Under the pieces are notes generated by a model. That model ran no database searches. It was not told the origin of the DNA and was given only the letters and a program-made list of their open reading frames with translations. 64,000 bases of DNA, taken from assembly GCF_011022235.1 (NCBI RefSeq), contig NZ_JAAIYP010000039.1, positions 310,001 through 374,000 of the forward strand. Direction: 5' to 3'. Made by a program: the position numbers and the translations under genes. The DNA is from Magnetospirillum aberrantis SpK (GTDB lineage Bacteria > Pseudomonadota > Alphaproteobacteria > Rhodospirillales > Magnetospirillaceae). Shown piece after piece: positions 16,017 to 24,252 of this stretch (position 1 is its first letter; each line of letters opens with the position of its first letter).

Positions 16017-16358
16017 ATGATCACCGTCTACTACAAGTCTGGAAGCGCCCAGTGGAAATACGAGCTGGACGAAGCAGAACACGACTACATCATCAAGAAC
16101 CTGCTTGAGGACAAGCCCGACATCGAAGAGATGTTCGACGACTCGCTGGAAATCCTGCGCGACGTCGCCGACCTCGACGAAGACGAGATGGACGAGGACG
16201 ACCAGATCGACCAGACCATCGCCGTCGCCTTCCTGTGGCATTATTTCAACCACATGGCCAAGCCGGAAGAGCGCATCCAGGGCGACATCGCCCTGATCGA
16301 GGAAGACGACGGCGCCGGCGTCACGGTGTTGCCCGCCGCCGACATCGTCGAGGAATGA
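16017..16358 (+). CDS. Acidic hypothetical protein
   Basis: A 113-aa protein, very acidic in the middle (VADLDEDEMDEDDQIDQT) with an N-terminal ITVYYKSGSAQWKYELDEAEHDYI segment. I do not recognise a family. The start at 16017 follows GACCGAGGT. A strong terminator follows at once, so it is a single-gene unit convergent with the hemerythrin operon. Confidence 0.72.
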   Translation: MITVYYKSGSAQWKYELDEAEHDYIIKNLLEDKPDIEEMFDDSLEILRDVADLDEDEMDEDDQIDQTIAVAFLWHYFNHMAKPEERIQGDIALIEEDDGAGVTVLPAADIVEE

Positions 16359-16361
16359 GCG

Positions 16362-16384
16362 AAGGCCCCGTCAGGGGCCTTTTT
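16362..16384 (+). terminator. Rho-independent terminator
   Basis: AAGGCCCC-GTCA-GGGGCCTT is followed by a T run, starting 3 bp after the stop of the acidic small protein. Confidence 0.8.
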
Positions 16385-16388
16385 CATG

Positions 16389-16889
16389 TCACCCCACCGT
16401 CTCGCGGTAGACCTGCGCCAGACGGACGTCGGTGTCGCCGTCCACCAGCGCCGAAATGGCGGCCAGAAGCCCCATCTCTTCTTTCTGGATGTGAAAGATC
16501 TCGCGCTCGACCAACTCGACGCCGGCATCCTTGAAATCCCGCCAGTCCTGTTCGCCGAAGGCGCCGGCCGCCACCGCCGCGTCGGCCAGATCGGCGACCC
16601 TGAGCGCCAGCGGCAGGATGGTGCGGTGTTCCATGGTCAGCATCATGACGATGCCGGTTTCGCCGCGCCGGGTGAATTCCGGGAACAGGTGGTTTTCCTC
16701 GAAGCCGAAATGCTTTTCCACTTCTTGACGAAGGGTGCCGCCAAGCGCCGCCAGGAACGCCTTCACCGTCTCGTCCAAGACCGGTGCTCCGCGTTGGCGG
16801 CCCAGGAATTCCTCGAGGTTTTGCAGGCTTTCGATGGTGGCCATGTGGTCCTGGTGCAACAGGGAACCGGTCTGGGTCTGCATCAACAT
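16389..16889 (-). CDS. Hemerythrin-domain protein
   Basis: A 166-aa four-helix protein with the hemerythrin ligand pattern: HQDH near the N-terminus, HFGFEENHLFPEF in helix 2/3, MEHRTILPL, and EREIFHIQKEEMG near the end. It would bind a non-haem di-iron centre. Relatives handle oxygen, NO or iron-centre repair (YtfE/DnrN-like or simple hemerythrins). It is the last gene of a three-gene unit with the NnrS-like membrane protein (12 bp upstream) and the DUF2249 protein. This setting favours a role in NO or low-oxygen physiology. Confidence 0.85.
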   Translation of the reverse strand: MLMQTQTGSLLHQDHMATIESLQNLEEFLGRQRGAPVLDETVKAFLAALGGTLRQEVEKHFGFEENHLFPEFTRRGETGIVMMLTMEHRTILPLALRVADLADAAVAAGAFGEQDWRDFKDAGVELVEREIFHIQKEEMGLLAAISALVDGDTDVRLAQVYRETVG

Positions 16890-16901
16890 TTGGCGAAATC
16901 C

Positions 16902-18191
16902 TCAGGCTTTTGAAGGTTGGGCCGCCCGCTCTTGGGCGATCAGGCGCGACAGGACTAGGAAGGCGGAAAGGGCGAAGGCCAAGGCCCCGACCAGTCCCAG
17001 GGCGGCAGCGGCCCGGATCACCGGCACAGATCCCGCCATCAGGCCAACGACGCCAAGCGCCAGCGCCGCGCCATGGCATACGGCATGAACGGCCAGCGGC
17101 CGTTCCGCCACCAATTTGGACATCAGCACCGGCCGGCCGCTGGCGCCGCCCGAATGCATGGACGCCAGAAACGGCATGATGCGCTGCAAGATGCCGGTGA
17201 CGAAGGTCAGCAGCCAGCCGAACACCAGAAGCCATCCCCACAGCGGCGCCGACAATTCGGGCGCGCCGCCCACGGCCACCGCCATTCCCAGAACCACGCT
17301 GACCGGCAACAAGATCCACGCCAGCCGCACCAGCCGAAAGAATGGCTCCAGGCGTTTGCGCATGCGACTTTCCAATACCGCCAGAAGCGCGCGCAGATGC
17401 AATCCGATGGCGACCAGTCCGACCACGCCGCCAGCCACGGCCACCATGCCCTGTCCCAGCACCAGCCCCGCCACCGCCAGAACCAACGCCACGGCGGACA
17501 ACGTCGCGCTTTGCCGGCCGACGGCGTCGGGCACCCCTTGGGACAGCACGAACATCGGCACCAGCACGTAGGAAAAGCCCAAGGCCAGATTGCCCATGAA
17601 GCCATACCCGGCCAGCACCGCATGGGCGGCGGCGACGGCGCCGCGACGGTCCAGGAACCCCACGCCCACATCCGACACCAGCAACAGGCCAAGCACGGCA
17701 AGACCAAGCAGGGACGCCAGGGCGATCCAGGCGTGGCGCGTAACGCCGGGCAGGTCGGATACCTGGAGCAGGTTGCGCCCCACCAGCACCCCGAACAGCG
17801 ACAGCCCCGCCACGGTCAGCCACCCGCCGGCATGCATGGCGCCCACATGTTCGGCTCCCATGCCCAGGCTCAGCACCACGACACCGGGCGTATAAAGCCA
17901 CCACGTCAGCCGGCACGCCCACAGCGGCCCCAATTGGCGCCGGGTCGCCACCGGCAACATCTGGAAGGCGGCCCCCATGGCGGTCATGCCGAGAACGCCC
18001 AGCGTGATCAGGTGCAGCCCGGCCAAAGCCGGCCCCAACCCGCCCTGGAACCCAGGCAGCGTGTCGGCGCCAAGCAGCACCGCGCCCCAGCCGGCAACAT
18101 GCAGGACCACCGCCGAGGCGAAGAAACGAAAGGGCACCGACGGCGGCAGCAACCGGTCCTTGGCCCCCATCATCAGCATGCCGGGAACCAT
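16902..18191 (-). CDS. NnrS-like haem/copper-type membrane protein
   Basis: A 429-aa polytopic membrane protein with about 12 helices. HLITLGVLGMTAMGAAFQML, AHAVLAGYGFMGNLALGFSY and the following helices carry His residues spaced as in NnrS / cytochrome oxidase subunit I-like proteins. NnrS relatives limit nitrosative stress during denitrification. It starts 4 bp after the DUF2249 gene and ends 12 bp before the hemerythrin gene. The FNR/NNR-type palindrome upstream of the operon supports the same theme. The exact start is uncertain because several Met codons lie within the first eight residues. Confidence 0.78.
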   Translation of the reverse strand: MVPGMLMMGAKDRLLPPSVPFRFFASAVVLHVAGWGAVLLGADTLPGFQGGLGPALAGLHLITLGVLGMTAMGAAFQMLPVATRRQLGPLWACRLTWWLYTPGVVVLSLGMGAEHVGAMHAGGWLTVAGLSLFGVLVGRNLLQVSDLPGVTRHAWIALASLLGLAVLGLLLVSDVGVGFLDRRGAVAAAHAVLAGYGFMGNLALGFSYVLVPMFVLSQGVPDAVGRQSATLSAVALVLAVAGLVLGQGMVAVAGGVVGLVAIGLHLRALLAVLESRMRKRLEPFFRLVRLAWILLPVSVVLGMAVAVGGAPELSAPLWGWLLVFGWLLTFVTGILQRIMPFLASMHSGGASGRPVLMSKLVAERPLAVHAVCHGAALALGVVGLMAGSVPVIRAAAALGLVGALAFALSAFLVLSRLIAQERAAQPSKA

Positions 18192-18195
18192 GGCC

Positions 18196-18807
18196 TCAGC
18201 CCTCGCGCATCAGCCACAGGCGGACATTGGCGAATTCCTCGGCCATGCGTTCCACCCGCCAGCCGCGCTCGGCCAATTCCGGGAACAGGAATTGCGGCAC
18301 GCGTTCGTGATGCACCACCACCGTCTCGGTCGCGGCGACGGCGTCAAGCAGGCGCAGCACCGCCAGCATGGGCTGCGGCGGCTTGAGCTTGCGCACGTCG
18401 ATATGCAAACCGTCGTCTTCGCGCCAGGTCATGGCTCCTTCCGGCCCGACCTCGACGTCGGCGTCGCGCTCCCAGTCCTGGCCGCCGTTCAGCACGAAGA
18501 ACACCCGCCAATGGCCCGGCCCCAGGTTACGCCCGTACGAAGAGAAACCGCGTGCCGCCAGGATGCGGCGCAGCGGCGACGGGTTGAAGGGAGCGTCGAT
18601 CACCAGGGCACCGCCGAATTCGATGCCGTCGGCGGCTTCCATGATCAGCCCCAAAGGGTCCTCGCCGGTGGCCAGGGCCGGACGCACGTCCAGCGGTTCG
18701 ATATCCAGCGCCAACGCCAGCCATTCCGGCGGCCCCGGTTGCCGTTCCGCCGTCGAATCCTTGTCTGTCAAGCCCTTGGCCGTCGCGCCCGTTGTCCGGT
18801 CGTTCAT
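18196..18807 (-). CDS. Tandem DUF2249 protein
   Basis: A 203-aa protein with two copies of the DUF2249 fold (TusA-like superfamily). The first runs at about 37-92 (PLDVRPALATGEDPLGLIMEA, PLRRILAARGF). The second runs at about 133-190 (HIDVRKLKPPQPMLAVLRLL, VVHHERVPQFLFPELAERGW). Families of this type cluster with hemerythrin, NnrS and denitrification genes and are thought to act in sulfur or metal handling; the biochemical function is unproven. It is the first gene of the operon. Its ATG at 18807 follows a GGGAG site. Confidence 0.82.
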   Translation of the reverse strand: MNDRTTGATAKGLTDKDSTAERQPGPPEWLALALDIEPLDVRPALATGEDPLGLIMEAADGIEFGGALVIDAPFNPSPLRRILAARGFSSYGRNLGPGHWRVFFVLNGGQDWERDADVEVGPEGAMTWREDDGLHIDVRKLKPPQPMLAVLRLLDAVAATETVVVHHERVPQFLFPELAERGWRVERMAEEFANVRLWLMREG

Positions 18808-18853
18808 GGCAAACTCCCTGCTTTGTCGCCAACCCTACACCGGGTGTGGTCGA

Positions 18854-18877
18854 TTCCCTTGACGTTCGACAAGGGAA
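18854..18877 (-). promoter_or_regulatory. FNR/NNR-type palindromic operator
   Basis: The 24-bp dyad reads TTCCCTTGAC-GTTC-GACAAGGGAA: 8-bp perfect outer arms TTCCCTTG / CAAGGGAA around a core close to TTGAC-N4-GTCAA (one position off). It is centred 59 bp upstream of the DUF2249 start codon. A TAGGGT hexamer at 18837-18832 lies about 31 bp from the dyad centre, where the -10 of a class II FNR-type promoter would lie. The sequence after the dyad is not T-rich, so it is unlikely to be a murI terminator. Confidence 0.6.
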
Positions 18878-18901
18878 GCAAGAAGCGGGCCGGGCCGGCC
18901 T

Positions 18902-19768
18902 TCAGCCGATGTCCACCAACTCCACCTGGGCGGCGGCGATGCCCCAGGGCACGAACACCCCGGCCACGCGGGCGAAGCGATCGGGAGCGTCGGTGACCAT
19001 GTAACGCACCTCGCCCGCCGTCGCCGTGGTCGCCAGACGGCGGTGGGACAGCAGATCCTCGACCGCGCTGGCGGTGGTCGTGGCGGAATCGACGATGGCC
19101 ACCTCGGGCCCCAGCAGCCGGCGCAACAACGGTTCCAGCGCCGGGAAGTGGGTGCAGCCCAGCAACAGGCAGTCGGCGCGCCCGTCGGGCGGCGGGTCCA
19201 GGAACAACGGCGCCAGATAATGCCGGGCGATCATCTCGGCGATGGCGTCGTCGACCATGCCTTCCTCGACCATCGACACGAACAACGGACAGGCCCGCGA
19301 CGTCACCCGCGCGCCGGGCCGCGAATGCAGGATGGCGCGGGGATAGGTGCCGGCCTGGACCGTGCTTTCGGTGGCGATGACCGCGATGCGGCCTTCGGCG
19401 CTGGCGTGGCCGGCGGCGGTGGCGCCCGGTTCCACCACCCCGATCACCGGCAGGCCGGGGAAGGCGGCCCGCAAAGGTTCCAGCGCATGGGCCGACGAGG
19501 TGTTGTCGGCCACCACCAGCGCCTTGATGCCGGTGGCGACCAGGGCGCGGGCGGCCTGAACCGCGTAATGGCTGACCGCCTCGGCACTCTTGGTGCCATA
19601 GGGCAGACGCGCCGTGTCCCCCAGATAGACCAGCGACTCGCGAGGCAGGCGCTCACGCAGGGCCTTGAGCACGGTCAGCCCGCCCACGCCGGAATCGAAC
19701 ACTCCGATAGGCAGGTCGCGTTTCTTCTGAGGCACGGTTCTGGCATCCTTGGCGGCGGAAGCCGGCAT
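18902..19768 (-). CDS. murI: Glutamate racemase family protein, first catalytic Cys replaced
   Basis: A 288-aa protein of the Asp/Glu racemase family; MurI makes D-glutamate for peptidoglycan. Family motifs are clear: IGVFDSGVGGLTVLK (21-35), YLGDTARLPYGTK (48-60), the second catalytic cysteine Cys205 in LLLGCTHFPALEPLL, and TTTASAVEDLL. The first catalytic motif, normally ACNTAS/T, reads ADNTSS, placing Asp88 where the catalytic Cys is expected; the codon is GAC. The enzyme may be altered or inactive as a racemase, or use Asp as base. The ATG at 19768 was chosen; GTG at codon 12 (VPQKKRDLP) is possible. Confidence 0.85.
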   Translation of the reverse strand: MPASAAKDARTVPQKKRDLPIGVFDSGVGGLTVLKALRERLPRESLVYLGDTARLPYGTKSAEAVSHYAVQAARALVATGIKALVVADNTSSAHALEPLRAAFPGLPVIGVVEPGATAAGHASAEGRIAVIATESTVQAGTYPRAILHSRPGARVTSRACPLFVSMVEEGMVDDAIAEMIARHYLAPLFLDPPPDGRADCLLLGCTHFPALEPLLRRLLGPEVAIVDSATTTASAVEDLLSHRRLATTATAGEVRYMVTDAPDRFARVAGVFVPWGIAAAQVELVDIG

Positions 19769-19873
19769 CCTTGGTCCGTCGGCATGGAAAAGCAAGCGCC
19801 GAGCGCGGGCATCAGCCTCTTGGCGACGCCCGGACATTGGTCTAGGGTCTAACCGGCATCCAGGGAGCCTATT

Positions 19874-20575
19874 ATGCCCGATACCGCGCCGGACAAGAGC
19901 GTCCTGCTGCAACTGCAATTCACTCCGCTGTTCTCGGGCCTGCTCGAAGCGGACATCCGTGCGCTGATCGAGGGCGCGCGCCTGATGTCCCTTGCCCACG
20001 AACACGCGCTTTACGACCAGGGCGACCTTGTGGCCGACTTCTACGTGGTCCTTGACGGCCATGTTGAATTGTCCGTGGACAGCGGCGGCCGTCGTTCGGT
20101 GGTCGAGGTGGTGCGCAAGGGCACCGTGCTGGGCGACGCCGCCATGTTCGGCGATGGCCGCTTCCTGATGAGCGCGCGGGTGCTGACCGGCGCCACCGTC
20201 CTGGCGGTGCCGGCGGCGTCGTTCCTGGACAAGCTGGAAACCCGCTTCGACATCATCACCCACATGCTGTCCACCATGTCGTTCCGGCTGCGCATGCTGG
20301 TGCGCCAGATCGCCGAACTGAAGCTCAAGACCACCGCCCAGCGGCTGGGCAGCTTCCTGCTGTCCCAGGCCGAAGCCGAGGAAGGCCGCGTCACCCTGCG
20401 CTTCCCTTACGACAAGCGGCTGGTGGCCGACGAATTGGGCATGAAGCCGGAAAGCCTGTCGCGGGCGCTGGCCAAACTCGGCAAACTGGGGGTCGAATCA
20501 CGGCCCGACAACAGCGTGGTCATCGCCGACATCGAACGGCTGCGCGAATTCTGCGTCGAAGACGACATGGGGTAA
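19874..20575 (+). CDS. Crp/FNR-family transcription regulator (first of a tandem pair)
   Basis: A 233-aa protein with an N-terminal beta-roll sensor (about 15-130), a long dimer helix, and a C-terminal winged helix. The recognition helix PESLSRALAKLGKLGVE has the E-x-x-S-R pattern used by FNR/DNR-type proteins to read TTGAT/C half-sites. It lacks the N-terminal iron-sulfur cysteines of FNR, so it belongs nearer to the DNR/NNR type. Its paralogue follows 5 bp later. It could control the DUF2249/NnrS/hemerythrin operon 1 kb away, whose promoter has a matching palindrome; this is inference. Confidence 0.88.
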   Translation: MPDTAPDKSVLLQLQFTPLFSGLLEADIRALIEGARLMSLAHEHALYDQGDLVADFYVVLDGHVELSVDSGGRRSVVEVVRKGTVLGDAAMFGDGRFLMSARVLTGATVLAVPAASFLDKLETRFDIITHMLSTMSFRLRMLVRQIAELKLKTTAQRLGSFLLSQAEAEEGRVTLRFPYDKRLVADELGMKPESLSRALAKLGKLGVESRPDNSVVIADIERLREFCVEDDMG

Positions 20576-20580
20576 GGAAG

Positions 20581-21288
20581 ATGGCCGGGTTACCCGCCGC
20601 GGATCTTGAACTTTGCGCCCAGGCACCGCTGTTCGCGGCACTGGACAGAACCGACCTTTGCGCCCTGCTGGAACAGGCCCAGGCGGTGTCCTATGGCGAA
20701 ACCGGCCTGTTGTTCAGCCAGGGCGACACCGCCGACCGCTTCTTCGTGGTGCTGGCCGGCCGCGTCAACCTGTTCGCGCTGACGGAAACCGGCGACCAAT
20801 CCATCATCGAGGTGTTCGACGCCGTCGCCACCTTCGCCGAGGCCGCCATGTTCTCGTCGGGCAAGTTTCCGCTTAATTGCGAGGTTCTGGCGGGGTCCCG
20901 GCTGGTGCACGTGCCGGCGGGGCCGTTTCTCAAGCGGCTGAGCGAAAACCGCAAGACGGCGTTTCACCTGATGTCGGGTCTGTCGCGCTGGCAGATGCGC
21001 ATGATCCACGAGATCACCGAGTTGAAAAGCAAGTCGCCGGGCCAACGTCTGGCGTCGTTCCTGTTGGCGCTGGCCAGGAAACAGGAAGGCGACGCGGAAG
21101 GCGGCGGCACCCAGGTCCGTTTGCCGATCACCAAGGCGGTGCTGGCCAGCCGTATCGGCATCGCCCCGGAATCGCTGTCGCGGGCCTTGGGCCGGCTCAA
21201 GGCGGTGGGCGTCGAAAGCCATGGCCGCGAAGTGGTGCTGACCGACCTCGACGCCCTGCGCCGGCTGGTGCGCGAAGGGGAAGAATAG
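20581..21288 (+). CDS. Crp/FNR-family transcription regulator (second of a tandem pair)
   Basis: A 235-aa paralogue of the preceding gene with the same layout: sensor beta-roll, dimer helix (SRWQMRMIHEITELKSKSPGQ) and winged helix with PESLSRALGRLKAVGVE. The recognition residues match its neighbour, so both probably bind the same class of site. The sensor halves differ strongly, suggesting different signals. The start ATG is 5 bp after the upstream stop with GGAAG in between, so the two are cotranscribed. It has no FNR-type cysteine cluster. Confidence 0.88.
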   Translation: MAGLPAADLELCAQAPLFAALDRTDLCALLEQAQAVSYGETGLLFSQGDTADRFFVVLAGRVNLFALTETGDQSIIEVFDAVATFAEAAMFSSGKFPLNCEVLAGSRLVHVPAGPFLKRLSENRKTAFHLMSGLSRWQMRMIHEITELKSKSPGQRLASFLLALARKQEGDAEGGGTQVRLPITKAVLASRIGIAPESLSRALGRLKAVGVESHGREVVLTDLDALRRLVREGEE

Positions 21289-21294
21289 GGTTCT

Positions 21295-21489
21295 CTAACC
21301 GGCCGCCTTCAACTGCTCGCGCGCGGCGGCCAGACGGGAATGCAGATCATAGCATTTCTGCGCCACCTCGGGGATTTTCTGCCAATCGGTGGGCAGTTCC
21401 TCGGACAGGTCGTGCAAATCCATCTTGGCCTGGGTGGCCTGGGTCGACAGCTTCTTGATCTCGGCTTTCAGGGTATCGACGTCGCTCAT
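21295..21489 (-). CDS. DUF683 / CCE_0567-type small metalloprotein
   Basis: A 64-aa helical-hairpin protein: LKAEIKKLSTQATQAKMDLH, DLSEELPTDWQKIPEVAQ, KCYDLHSRLAAAREQLK. This matches the small Rop-like DUF683 proteins usually found beside nifX and nifEN in nitrogen fixers; one cyanobacterial member binds metal through His residues. Here it stands alone, with no nif gene in the window. It converges on the second Crp/FNR gene with 6 bp between stops. Confidence 0.8.
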   Translation of the reverse strand: MSDVDTLKAEIKKLSTQATQAKMDLHDLSEELPTDWQKIPEVAQKCYDLHSRLAAAREQLKAAG

Positions 21490-21573
21490 GTCTTGGTCCC
21501 GGCTGTGGCTTGGCGGAAGCGCACGACCCGAGTTTAGACCTATTTTTAGGCATATTCCAATATTGCTTATTTT

Positions 21574-24252
21574 TCAGGCGCGCCGTTCCACGTGAGCGGC
21601 CGTGCCGTCATCCAACCTGGCTTTCCAGCGATCGAGCAGCGTCCCCAGTTTGGTCCGGTCGATCGGCTTGGCGATGTAGTCGTCCATGCCGGCGGCCAGA
21701 CAGATTTCGCGGTCTCCGCTCATGGCGTTGGCGGTCATGGCGATGATCGGCACCGAACGCGCCGCCCCGTCCAGCGCCCGGATCGCCCGCGTCGCGTCCA
21801 GGCCGCTCATGCCCGGCATCTGCATGTCCATCAAAACCAGATCGAAATCGCCGGACCGGACCTGTTCCACCGCCGCCACACCGTCGTCGGCGACCTCGGC
21901 GTGGTGACCGAACTTCTCCAGCAACCCCACCGCAACCTGTTGATTGATGACATTGTCCTCGGCCACCAGGATACGCAGTCCCCCACGCCGATGCCCCGGA
22001 GCCGGCGCACACACCGGCGAAGGCATGTCGGCGGCGACGCCGAACACCTGGGCCAGGGTCTCGACCAGGGCCGCGCCGTCCAACGGACGGGACAACAGAT
22101 GGGTCACCCCCACCGCCGCCAGATTGGCGCCGTCGTCCCGTCGCAGCAATTCGTCGCCCACCAGGACCGCCGCCACCCCTTTCAGGGTCGGATCGGCACG
22201 GGTCAGCAACACGAGGTCAAGCGCGGTGACCCCACTCAGCCTGTCGTCGAGCAGCATCACCGTCGGCGGACAACCGGCGGCGGCGGCCTGACGCAGCATG
22301 GCCAGCGCCTGGATGGCGTCCAGGGCCAACGTCACCTCGAGCCCCAGGCGGTCGAAAACCGGCTCGACCTCGGCCAACATGCCCGCATCCTCGGTCACCG
22401 CCAGCATCCGCGACCCTGGCGGCAACACGATGTCGCGCACGACCGCGCTCCGGTTCTCGGCGCGGGTCAGCGGCACGCGGAACCAAAAGGTGCTGCCGTG
22501 GCCGGGCTCGCTGAGGAAACCGATCTCGCCGCCCATCTGTTCGACGATGCGCTTCGAGATGACCAGCCCCAGACCGGTGCCGCCGAAACGGCGCGCGGTC
22601 GAGGAATCGGCCTGGGTGAACATGGTGAACAGGCGCGCCTGCGCCTCTTCGGGAATGCCGATGCCGGTATCGACCACCGCGACCCGCAACCATTCCCGTT
22701 CACCCTCGGCGGCAACCGAGGCGACGACGTCCACACGGCCGCGCTCGGTGAACTTGAGCGCGTTACCGGCCAAATTCAGCAACACCTGACGCAAGCGGCC
22801 GGAATCGCCGACGAACACCCCCTCGCACCGGCCATCCAGCCGCCAATCCAGAACCACCTGGCGTTCGCGGCCGCGCGGAACCAACAGGTCCACCACACCG
22901 GCCACCACGGACTTTATTTCAAAGGCGCTTTCCTCGAAGCTCAACTTTCCGGCCTCCATCTTCGAGAAGTCCAGGATGTCGTTGATGATGGTCAGCAACG
23001 AATCCGCCGACACCCGAACCGTGTTGGCGAAATGGCGTTGTTGTGGATCCAGCGGCGTGTCCAGCAACAATCCGGTCATGCCGATGATGCCGTTCATGGG
23101 GGTACGGATTTCGTGGCTCATGGTGGCCAGGAACGCCGCCTTGGCCTCGGCCGCCGCCTCGGCCGCGTCCTTGGCCGACAACAATTGCTGGGCGAACATG
23201 CGCGAGGCGGTGGCATCGACGAAGGTCCACAGCCGCCCTCCCGTCTCTCCGCCGCCCAGAACCGGGAACGAACGGTGGGTGACGATGCGGCCGTTGCCCA
23301 TTTCGATGTCGCCGCCGCCGCCGGCCGTCACCTGTTCGGGCAACACCGCCGTCACCGACTTTCCCGCCGGCTCCTCCTCGCAGTTCCAGATGCCGCAGAA
23401 CGCCGGATTGGCGTAGACGATCTGGCCGTCGCCATCGGCGAACAGCACACCGAATTCCATGGCCGACAACAGGGACAACAAGCGGGCGCGTTCCTGGTCC
23501 AAGGCGCCGGCCAGCCGCGACTGCTGGTGCAAGGTCTGGTTCAGGTCGCCCAGCCGTTCGTCCACCGCGCGAGCCATGGCGTTGAAGGCGGCCCCCAGAC
23601 GGCCGACGTCGTCATCGCCTTCGGCCACCCGCACATGGGCGTAGTCGCCGGCCGCCACCTGGGCGCTGGCGCGGGTCAACTGGCCCAGATGGCGGGTCAG
23701 CCACCAGCCCACCAAGGTCAGCAACAAGGCGGTCATGACCACCTCGCCCACCGCGATGGCCACGCCTTGGACCACCAGGGCGCGACGGGCGGCGACGATG
23801 TGGTCGAGACCCAGGCCGAAATGCAGGGTCCCCAGCTTCTGCCCGGCCGACACCACCGGCACCACCACGTCATAGCGGGCGCCGCCATCCTTGTCGGCCA
23901 GGGAAAAGCCGGAATCAGCCGATGGCAAGGGACGGTCCTCGTCCCATCCGGCCCGCGCCATGACCTTGCCGCGCGAATCGGCCACCGCCAGATAGGACAG
24001 ACCATCGGCCATCTGGCTTTCCCGCAGGATGGCCTGAAGGGTGACGGTGTCGCGCTGAGCCAGCGGCGCCACCAGGGCAGCGTTGAGGACGGGGGAAATC
24101 TGTTCGGCATGCAGCCGGGCCTGTTCCGCCAGGCTGGAATAAAGCAGGCGGACGGAATTGCCCACCAGCGCCGACAGCATCACCGCCTCGACGCACAACG
24201 CGGCCACCAAAAGCCGCGCCCGCACCGTTCGGAAACGAGGCAGGAACCTCAT
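21574..24252 (-). CDS. Hybrid sensor histidine kinase with two receivers
   Basis: An 892-aa membrane kinase. A first membrane helix (about 10-32), a periplasmic or extracytoplasmic domain to about 165, a second helix and HAMP ([16 protein letters not shown]) lead into a PAS domain (about 265-345). HisKA follows ([21 protein letters not shown]), then an HATPase domain with the N, G1 and G2 boxes. The first receiver is degenerate: its TED acidic pocket and SRP in place of the KP motif suggest it cannot work normally. The second receiver is canonical ([22 protein letters not shown]). The start overlaps the stop of the PhnD-like gene by 4 bp, pointing to one signalling unit. Confidence 0.92.

Follow-up and report, generated by a model that had tools for sequence, protein, structure and literature searches.

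The window analysed here, a stretch of 64,000 nucleotides from Magnetospirillum aberrantis SpK (contig NZ_JAAIYP010000039.1, positions 310,001 to 374,000), carries on its minus strand a compact operon of three genes. They encode a tandem DUF2249 protein of 203 amino acids, in which PF10006 is found twice (18196..18807), a membrane protein of 429 amino acids with 12 helices and, in a structural model, the fold of heme-copper oxidase subunit I (16902..18191), and a hemerythrin-domain protein of 166 amino acids with PF01814 (16389..16889). An earlier note, made from the letters of this DNA, had described three genes in an operon, separated by 4 and 12 bp, and had named the tandem DUF2249 protein and the hemerythrin. 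The coordinates (18807-18196, 18191-16902 and 16889-16389) agree, with 4 bp between the DUF2249 and membrane protein genes and 12 bp between the membrane protein and hemerythrin genes, and the Pfam matches bear out both identities. The note was silent on two genes of the CRP/FNR family, CRP1 and CRP2 in the following, that adjoin the operon. Our analysis suggests a part for the operon in coping with nitric oxide (NO), because its promoter switch is much like those at the genes for nitrate, nitrite and NO respiration.

The conserved promoter box

Ahead of the operon lies a 24-bp dyad (18854..18877) that the earlier note had already pointed out, with arms complementary at 9 of 10 positions and a 4-nt spacer. 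A bare palindrome of this kind is weak evidence, because the window holds 12 dyads of equal quality (two 10-nt arms with at least 9 matches and a 4-nt loop), compared with 3-9 in 15 first-order simulations. In the window's own genome (G000; 4.15 Mb in 48 contigs), the pattern CCTTG-N8-CAAGG is found at 38 places, compared with 9 for a backward-read control. The dyad is more than chance because it is conserved in relatives. The refuting condition named in the note, absence of the dyad from related genomes, does not hold: a box is present there, although in asymmetric form. Near-perfect dyad symmetry is a feature of the window's genome and not of its relatives, the core TTG-N8-CAA being found in only 11 of 30 boxes.

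Conservation was followed in a set of 61 genomes, which includes G000, and in 80 named loci, which overlap with that set. The DUF2249 protein is found at E <= 0.001 in 39/61 genomes, and the genes for the DUF2249 protein, the membrane protein and the hemerythrin (hereafter the cassette) stand on the same strand and in the same order in 72/80 named loci, with more than 400 bp ahead of the hemerythrin match in eight of these 72. Among 40 regions fetched from relatives, 27 have CRP1 and CRP2 as the immediate upstream neighbours in the same orientation, followed by the box, the DUF2249 gene and the membrane protein gene. Hemerythrin is also present in 25 of these; of the other two, L075 stops at a contig end and L070 is without hemerythrin. 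A leave-one-out weight matrix of 17 columns, seeded with 14 hand-chosen sites from related rows and applied to regions begun 25 bp earlier than in a first run, finds a site at p <= 0.01, judged against 500 shuffles, in 27/27 loci with the upstream pair and in 8/13 without. The box is also kept in L057 (G014), whose pair stands at another place of the same contig, and in L061 (G021), whose pair is on another contig.

A site-anchored footprint was built from 30 of 41 sequences, namely the 27 loci with the upstream pair, L057, L061 and the window, and although anchoring on the best weight-matrix match favours the box, it yields a 17-bp element with the consensus CTTRNCNAANRTCAAGG between diverged flanks. 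The window form, CTTGTCGAACGTCAAGG, occupies 18857..18873 on the minus strand. Columns C0, T2, T11, C12, A13, A14 and G16 are invariant in 30/30 sequences and the two central A in 29/30; the fixed columns carry 1.7-2.3 bits, and the flanking columns mostly less than 0.4 bit. The box in the relatives is asymmetric, with a left half that is often CTTAAC and a central AA that is polar. Outside the alignment anchor, at columns 37-42, an island of the -10-like form YANNNT lies at offset 36-38 in 24/30 sequences (other spans of three offsets have a mean of 1.3 and a maximum of 11). This offset would put the centre of the box between -40.5 and -42.5, in class II geometry, for which a site centre near -41.5 is expected. 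In the window, the -10-like hexamer TAGGGT (18832..18837, minus strand) lies 36 positions from the box start, which would set the box centre near -40.5, so that the plausible -10 at class II distance proposed in the note is a sound reading; a scan of 16200-21600 for the sigma-70 consensus gave no match. Judged by these alignments, the promoter box of the operon looks to be under strong selection.

Denitrification genes and the candidate regulators

A strict form of the box, TTRACNAANRTYAA, was searched genome-wide in G007 and G000. In G007, a relative with a genome of 4.37 Mb in one contig, its four matches fall at the DUF2249 operon, between nirS and nirT, at norC and upstream of napF/napD, with 0 and 2 matches for backward controls; the gene names come from a reading of the translations and from PF02239 positions. 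Because of these four matches, the operon probably belongs to the denitrification regulon. G000 has five matches (controls 0 and 1), three of which stand at nirS/nirT, norC and napF, and upstream of its NO reductase operon (norC, norB and a norQ-like gene, from translations) the site reads CTTGACCAATGTTAAAG. The strict pattern is present in 14/30 norC upstream regions, and YANNNT lies at the same offset in 13 of those 14. The operon and norC thus have box type and promoter geometry in common, and nirS/nirT and napF have the box pattern in common with them. In this sense the compact operon of the earlier note does stand behind a conserved FNR/DNR-type site, similar in kind to those at nap, nir and nor. 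At nirS, the AA polarity, read by eye, is opposite to transcription, and the polarity is therefore not set by the polymerase. Across the 61 genomes, the cassette also co-occurs with norC (23/11/5/22, Fisher p 2e-4) and with the Cytochrom_D1 family (28/6/10/17, p 5e-4), kinship being ignored in both tables and the sets having been compiled by hand with weak matches left out.

The two remaining matches in G000 (L242 at G000:C2:11545 and L245 at G000:C39:57744) precede, as far as the translations show, a gene for a small c-type cytochrome in the first case, and in the second stand between rnfE/rnfH-like genes on one side and a gene for an SQR-like flavoprotein on the other. A looser pattern, CTTRNCNNNNRTCAAG, is found at 10 + 9 places (controls 3 and 2), and open reading frames were examined at five of these 19 (L091, L092, L094, L095 and L100). 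L094 (G000:C11:80411) is an FNR/DNR-type site, CTTGACACCCATCAAG, which has no central AA and lies just upstream of a true NnrS gene; L091, which is AA-centred, lies inside the terminal part of a cytochrome c gene that comes after a nosZ-like tail; and no denitrification gene was seen at L092, at L095 (AA-centred) or at L100. In another locus, an open frame immediately ahead of norC and in the same orientation has a hemerythrin-like translation (L111:3421-3972).

CRP1 (19874..20575) and CRP2 (20581..21288), the first and second of a tandem pair on the plus strand of the window, each carry PF00027 and PF13545 and are 38% identical over 221 positions. The recognition-helix motif ESLSR is present in 27/28 CRP1 and 28/28 CRP2 proteins. 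No cysteine is conserved at 95% in either set of 28, so that the N-terminal cluster cysteines of FNR are not kept and the two are not FNR-type cluster proteins. The nearest structures to CRP1 in the PDB are 3h3z and 3fx3, followed by DNR (3dkw, E 2.7e-16); CRP2 matches 3h3z at E 7.9e-28 and DNR at E 3.2e-23. DNR is thus the third-best PDB match for both, and 3h3z and 3fx3 are named only "cyclic nucleotide-binding protein". DNR of P. aeruginosa resembles the pair in its membership of the CRP/FNR family and in its FNR-like box, TTGATnnnnATCAA. However, the arrangement here differs in having two tandem paralogues and an asymmetric box with a conserved central AA.

Association with the box speaks for the pair. 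A site of the form TTR-N8-YAA is found in 30/31 named loci with a CRP pair, AA-centred in 26, and in 15/48 without a pair, where the promoter may lie further upstream than scanned, AA-centred in one (L165). This count covers 79 of the 80 named loci, L235 being omitted as it has no DUF2249 match. Since the AA-centred site accompanies the pair, the box is tied to it better than to FNR, and the linked tandem pair CRP1/CRP2 is, from these comparisons, probably the regulator of the operon. L165 is apparently in G021, whose CRP pair sits on another contig. Autoregulation of CRP1 was also considered and rejected, as no consistent site is found upstream of CRP1 in 27 loci.

Similar tandem pairs stand beside nirS (G000, G007), norC (G039, G057) and NnrS (G059), and 3.2 kb from norC in G015. 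In a tree of 96 CRP proteins, from which the short fragment L159_o1 was omitted, the cassette CRP1 proteins form one clade (support 0.99) and the cassette CRP2 proteins another (0.88), and first or second genes from seven further pairs also fall in each clade. One branch splits all 95 first and second genes (L159_o3 also being omitted), with a support of only 0.19. The second tandem pair of G000, which adjoins nirS, lies at G000:C32:47445-48880 (L142), and pairs near nirS are seen in G007, G010, G013 and G034 too.

The proteins of the operon and related systems

The membrane protein had been described as heme-copper-type and NnrS-like; the former part is borne out by its modeled fold, and the latter is a loose name. 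Its AlphaFold2 model (predicted local distance difference test, pLDDT, 91.7) has the 12-helix fold of heme-copper oxidase subunit I, with Z 34.5 and a root-mean-square deviation (rmsd) of 3.0 over 389 residues to CcoN (8smr_E) and Z 31.9 to NorB (4xyd_A). Sequence profiles hardly reflect this. The window protein has no Pfam match; comparisons of its profile with CcoN/NorB and with four NnrS proteins were not significant; its family profile found no PDB sequence; and the COX1 profile PF00115 matches only two ccoN-like genes and norB in its own genome, and weakly 2/27 alignment members (best E 4.9e-4). By Pfam the protein is not NnrS: PF05940 gives no match over its cut-off, the search of G000 finds three other NnrS genes, and only 6/27 alignment members match at E <= 1 (best 1.3e-4). 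In our models, then, kinship with heme-copper oxidases is shown by fold only.

Heme-copper oxidase subunit I has six conserved metal and heme histidines, including an HH pair in helix VII and an HxH motif in helix X. Histidines were counted in the window and in those 74 of the 80 loci for which the match was free of stop codons, by sequence columns and not by structural superposition of ligands. H60 and H190 (75 sequences) and H373 (74) are invariant, in model helices II, VI and XI, and are joined by H369 (helix XI) in 68/75 and H346, at the far end of helix X, in 66/75. Neither a conserved histidine in helix VII nor HxH in helix X is found among the 75 sequences. With three invariant histidines only, the protein does not have the six of the oxidases, and because no HH (VII) or HxH (X) is conserved, it has not retained the metal site found in oxidases and NO reductases. 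Proteins of heme-copper-oxidase homology, NnrS among them, reportedly have 12 helices, the oxidase subunit I fold and few histidines, and it is these that the membrane protein resembles. A link of DUF2249 with the heme-copper-oxidase homology superfamily is noted in the haloarchaeal study PMC11218638, which cites Pei 2014 for it and reports that DUF2249 genes are induced in denitrification.

The two DUF2249 domains appear to have the TusA fold: the AlphaFold2 model (pLDDT 87.2) superposes on TusA (3lvj_C) with an rmsd of 2.1 over 71 columns, TMt 0.74 and a probability of 1.00. This match has a Foldseek E of 7.7e-3, no match lies below 0.001, and PF01206 (TusA) is found at E 0.003, below its cut-off. 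The active-site cysteine of TusA lies in CPxP; the window has PPxP at this position, and no cysteine is invariant in an alignment of 20. As single sequences, the DUF2249 and membrane proteins have no meaningful PDB sequence match. Many Rhodobacterales and Hyphomicrobiales loci without a CRP pair match only the second DUF2249 domain, and only some of the Alphaproteobacteria may therefore have the tandem form.

The hemerythrin has no meaningful PDB match as a single sequence, but a profile of 18 sequences places its domain close to YtfE (7bha_A, E 5.7e-6), with PF0695 (3cax_A, E 6e-6), which is uncharacterised, at equal strength. It resembles the iron-sulphur repair proteins YtfE/RIC/DnrN in its domain and in aligned His and Glu positions. 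YtfE/RIC bears an N-terminal ScdA_N-type domain; none is found in the cassette hemerythrin, which shows PF01814 only and has 166 amino acids compared with 219-220 in the PDB entries. Oxygen-carrying hemerythrins have HxxxH in the third helix. This motif is not kept, H88 alone being invariant there, and an oxygen carrier of that type was rejected. Induced hemerythrin genes are named in PMC9549626, and the cassette orthologue may be among them.

Several known systems share parts of this arrangement. In what follows, we take COG4309 to be the DUF2249 family. Rodionov 2005 (PMC1274295) places COG4309 genes in NnrR and NsrR regulons, often with norB, and the likeness lies in a DUF2249-family gene under predicted NO-responsive control. 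However, COG4309 occurs there with nor genes and NnrR/NsrR sites, and here with a heme-copper-oxidase homologue and a hemerythrin behind a different box. The NnrR regulon box, ctTTGcgnnnncgCAAag, differs from the cassette consensus and was set aside, and that text contains no occurrence of Magnetospirillum. DrpA and DrpB of Thermus thermophilus (PMC6282519) are DUF2249 proteins of nitrate-respiration clusters, DrpB with two domains; DrpB also has DUF1858, and its neighbours and regulation differ from those of the cassette. We found no paper describing the tandem pair or the box, or assigning a role to an operon of this make-up, in a search that did not extend to supplements, including the site list of Li 2014, and none on CRP/FNR heterodimers in connection with denitrification.

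Possible roles and alternative explanations

We consider it reasonably probable that the operon belongs to the magnetospirilla denitrification regulon, that its box is read by a CRP/FNR dimer (probably CRP1/CRP2, and NO-responsive) and that its products are an NO-handling module. A dimer of this family would bind the 17-bp box about 41 bp upstream of the transcription start and, judging from the spacing, would activate as at a class II promoter. The DNR-like tandem pair would be the most likely regulator, answering NO from nitrite reduction. At and under the membrane, the heme-copper-oxidase-fold protein, with few histidines kept, probably binds heme and would be neither an oxidase nor an NO reductase; the YtfE-like di-iron protein may repair or drain nitrosylated iron; and the TusA-like DUF2249 protein is a possible carrier or assembly partner. 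NO handling by the operon and NO sensing by the pair are both reasoned from sequence. A bolder form of the proposal, in which CRP1 and CRP2 are an obligate heterodimer on the asymmetric AA-centred box and the NO sensor for nap, nir and nor, and the membrane protein is an NO-binding, non-reducing hemoprotein, seems to us quite improbable as a whole. In M. gryphiswaldense, an NO donor raises denitrification genes about 100-fold without NsrR, and the sensor was left open (Pang et al. 2024). The box and the tandem pair would provide a named candidate for it, and the DUF2249/heme-copper-oxidase-homologue/hemerythrin operon is placed in what is likely the NO reductase regulon.

The main rival has the oxygen sensor MgFnr acting at the box, in which case the operon would answer oxygen rather than NO and the pair would regulate something else. 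We regard this as possible, if doubtful. Li 2014 ascribes the sites at denitrification operons to MgFnr, expression is changed in the gryphiswaldense Fnr mutant, and the napF box, TTGACCAAAATCAA, fits TTGAN6TCAA, a pattern also present in 8/30 norC upstream regions. Yet this pattern fits 0/30 cassette boxes, and the AA-centred site is found in 26/30 loci with pair and site, compared with 1/15 without an adjoining pair. A further CRP/FNR-type regulator, Mg2046 (DnrA), has also been described. A general role of the operon in maintaining iron-sulphur or respiratory functions when oxygen is low, linked to NO only because denitrification takes place under such conditions, appears unlikely to us, given the box and promoter geometry in common with norC and the pattern in common with nirS/nirT and napF; in favour of such a maintenance role are the lack of an adjoining CRP pair in 48/79 cassette loci, the kinship of the hemerythrin with a repair protein, YtfE, and the position of the cassette in Ruegeria marisrubri (L218), downstream of the genes for the 4-hydroxybenzoyl-CoA reductase alpha and beta subunits. 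Very improbable, in our estimate, is a box that has no regulatory function and owes its conservation to descent and to the CRP2 3' end. It overlaps the CRP2 stop codon in 6/27 loci (site-stop -5) and is favoured by the alignment anchoring, but its flanks diverge and it does not, it persists without an upstream pair in the window, L057 and L061, and the -10 stands at fixed spacing outside the anchor.

Several observations weigh against our preferred assignment to a denitrification regulon under CRP1/CRP2, and some of them have already been named: the ascription to MgFnr, and the Ruegeria marisrubri locus, according to which the tie between the module and denitrification is not universal. The strict pattern fits only 16/30 cassette boxes, the window box (TTGTC) itself being one base off, and two of the five matches in G000 lie at the small cytochrome c gene and the rnf/SQR-like gene. 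In about ten genomes with a pair, the norC site is without the central AA (L124 in G019, L126 in G014, L128 in G059, L129 in G049, L132/L137 in G030/G020, L133 in G033, L136 in G025, L139 in G010 and L123 in G001), and the norC upstream region L125 (G034) shows no site. The rows are related, so that locus counts are not independent. The 27/27 matrix result is also support and not proof, because of the hand-chosen seeds, this relatedness and the first run (22 columns, regions after the CRP2 stop), which gave p <= 0.01 in 14/27 only.

Between the operon and the pair (19874-21288, plus strand), the window carries a MurI-like racemase gene (18902..19846, minus strand; PF01177), the start codon of which is uncertain. 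The block of MurI, CRP1 and CRP2 (18902-21288) runs the opposite way from the arrangement that many relatives show, the box having remained beside the operon, and a misassembly of the window may be the source of this inversion.

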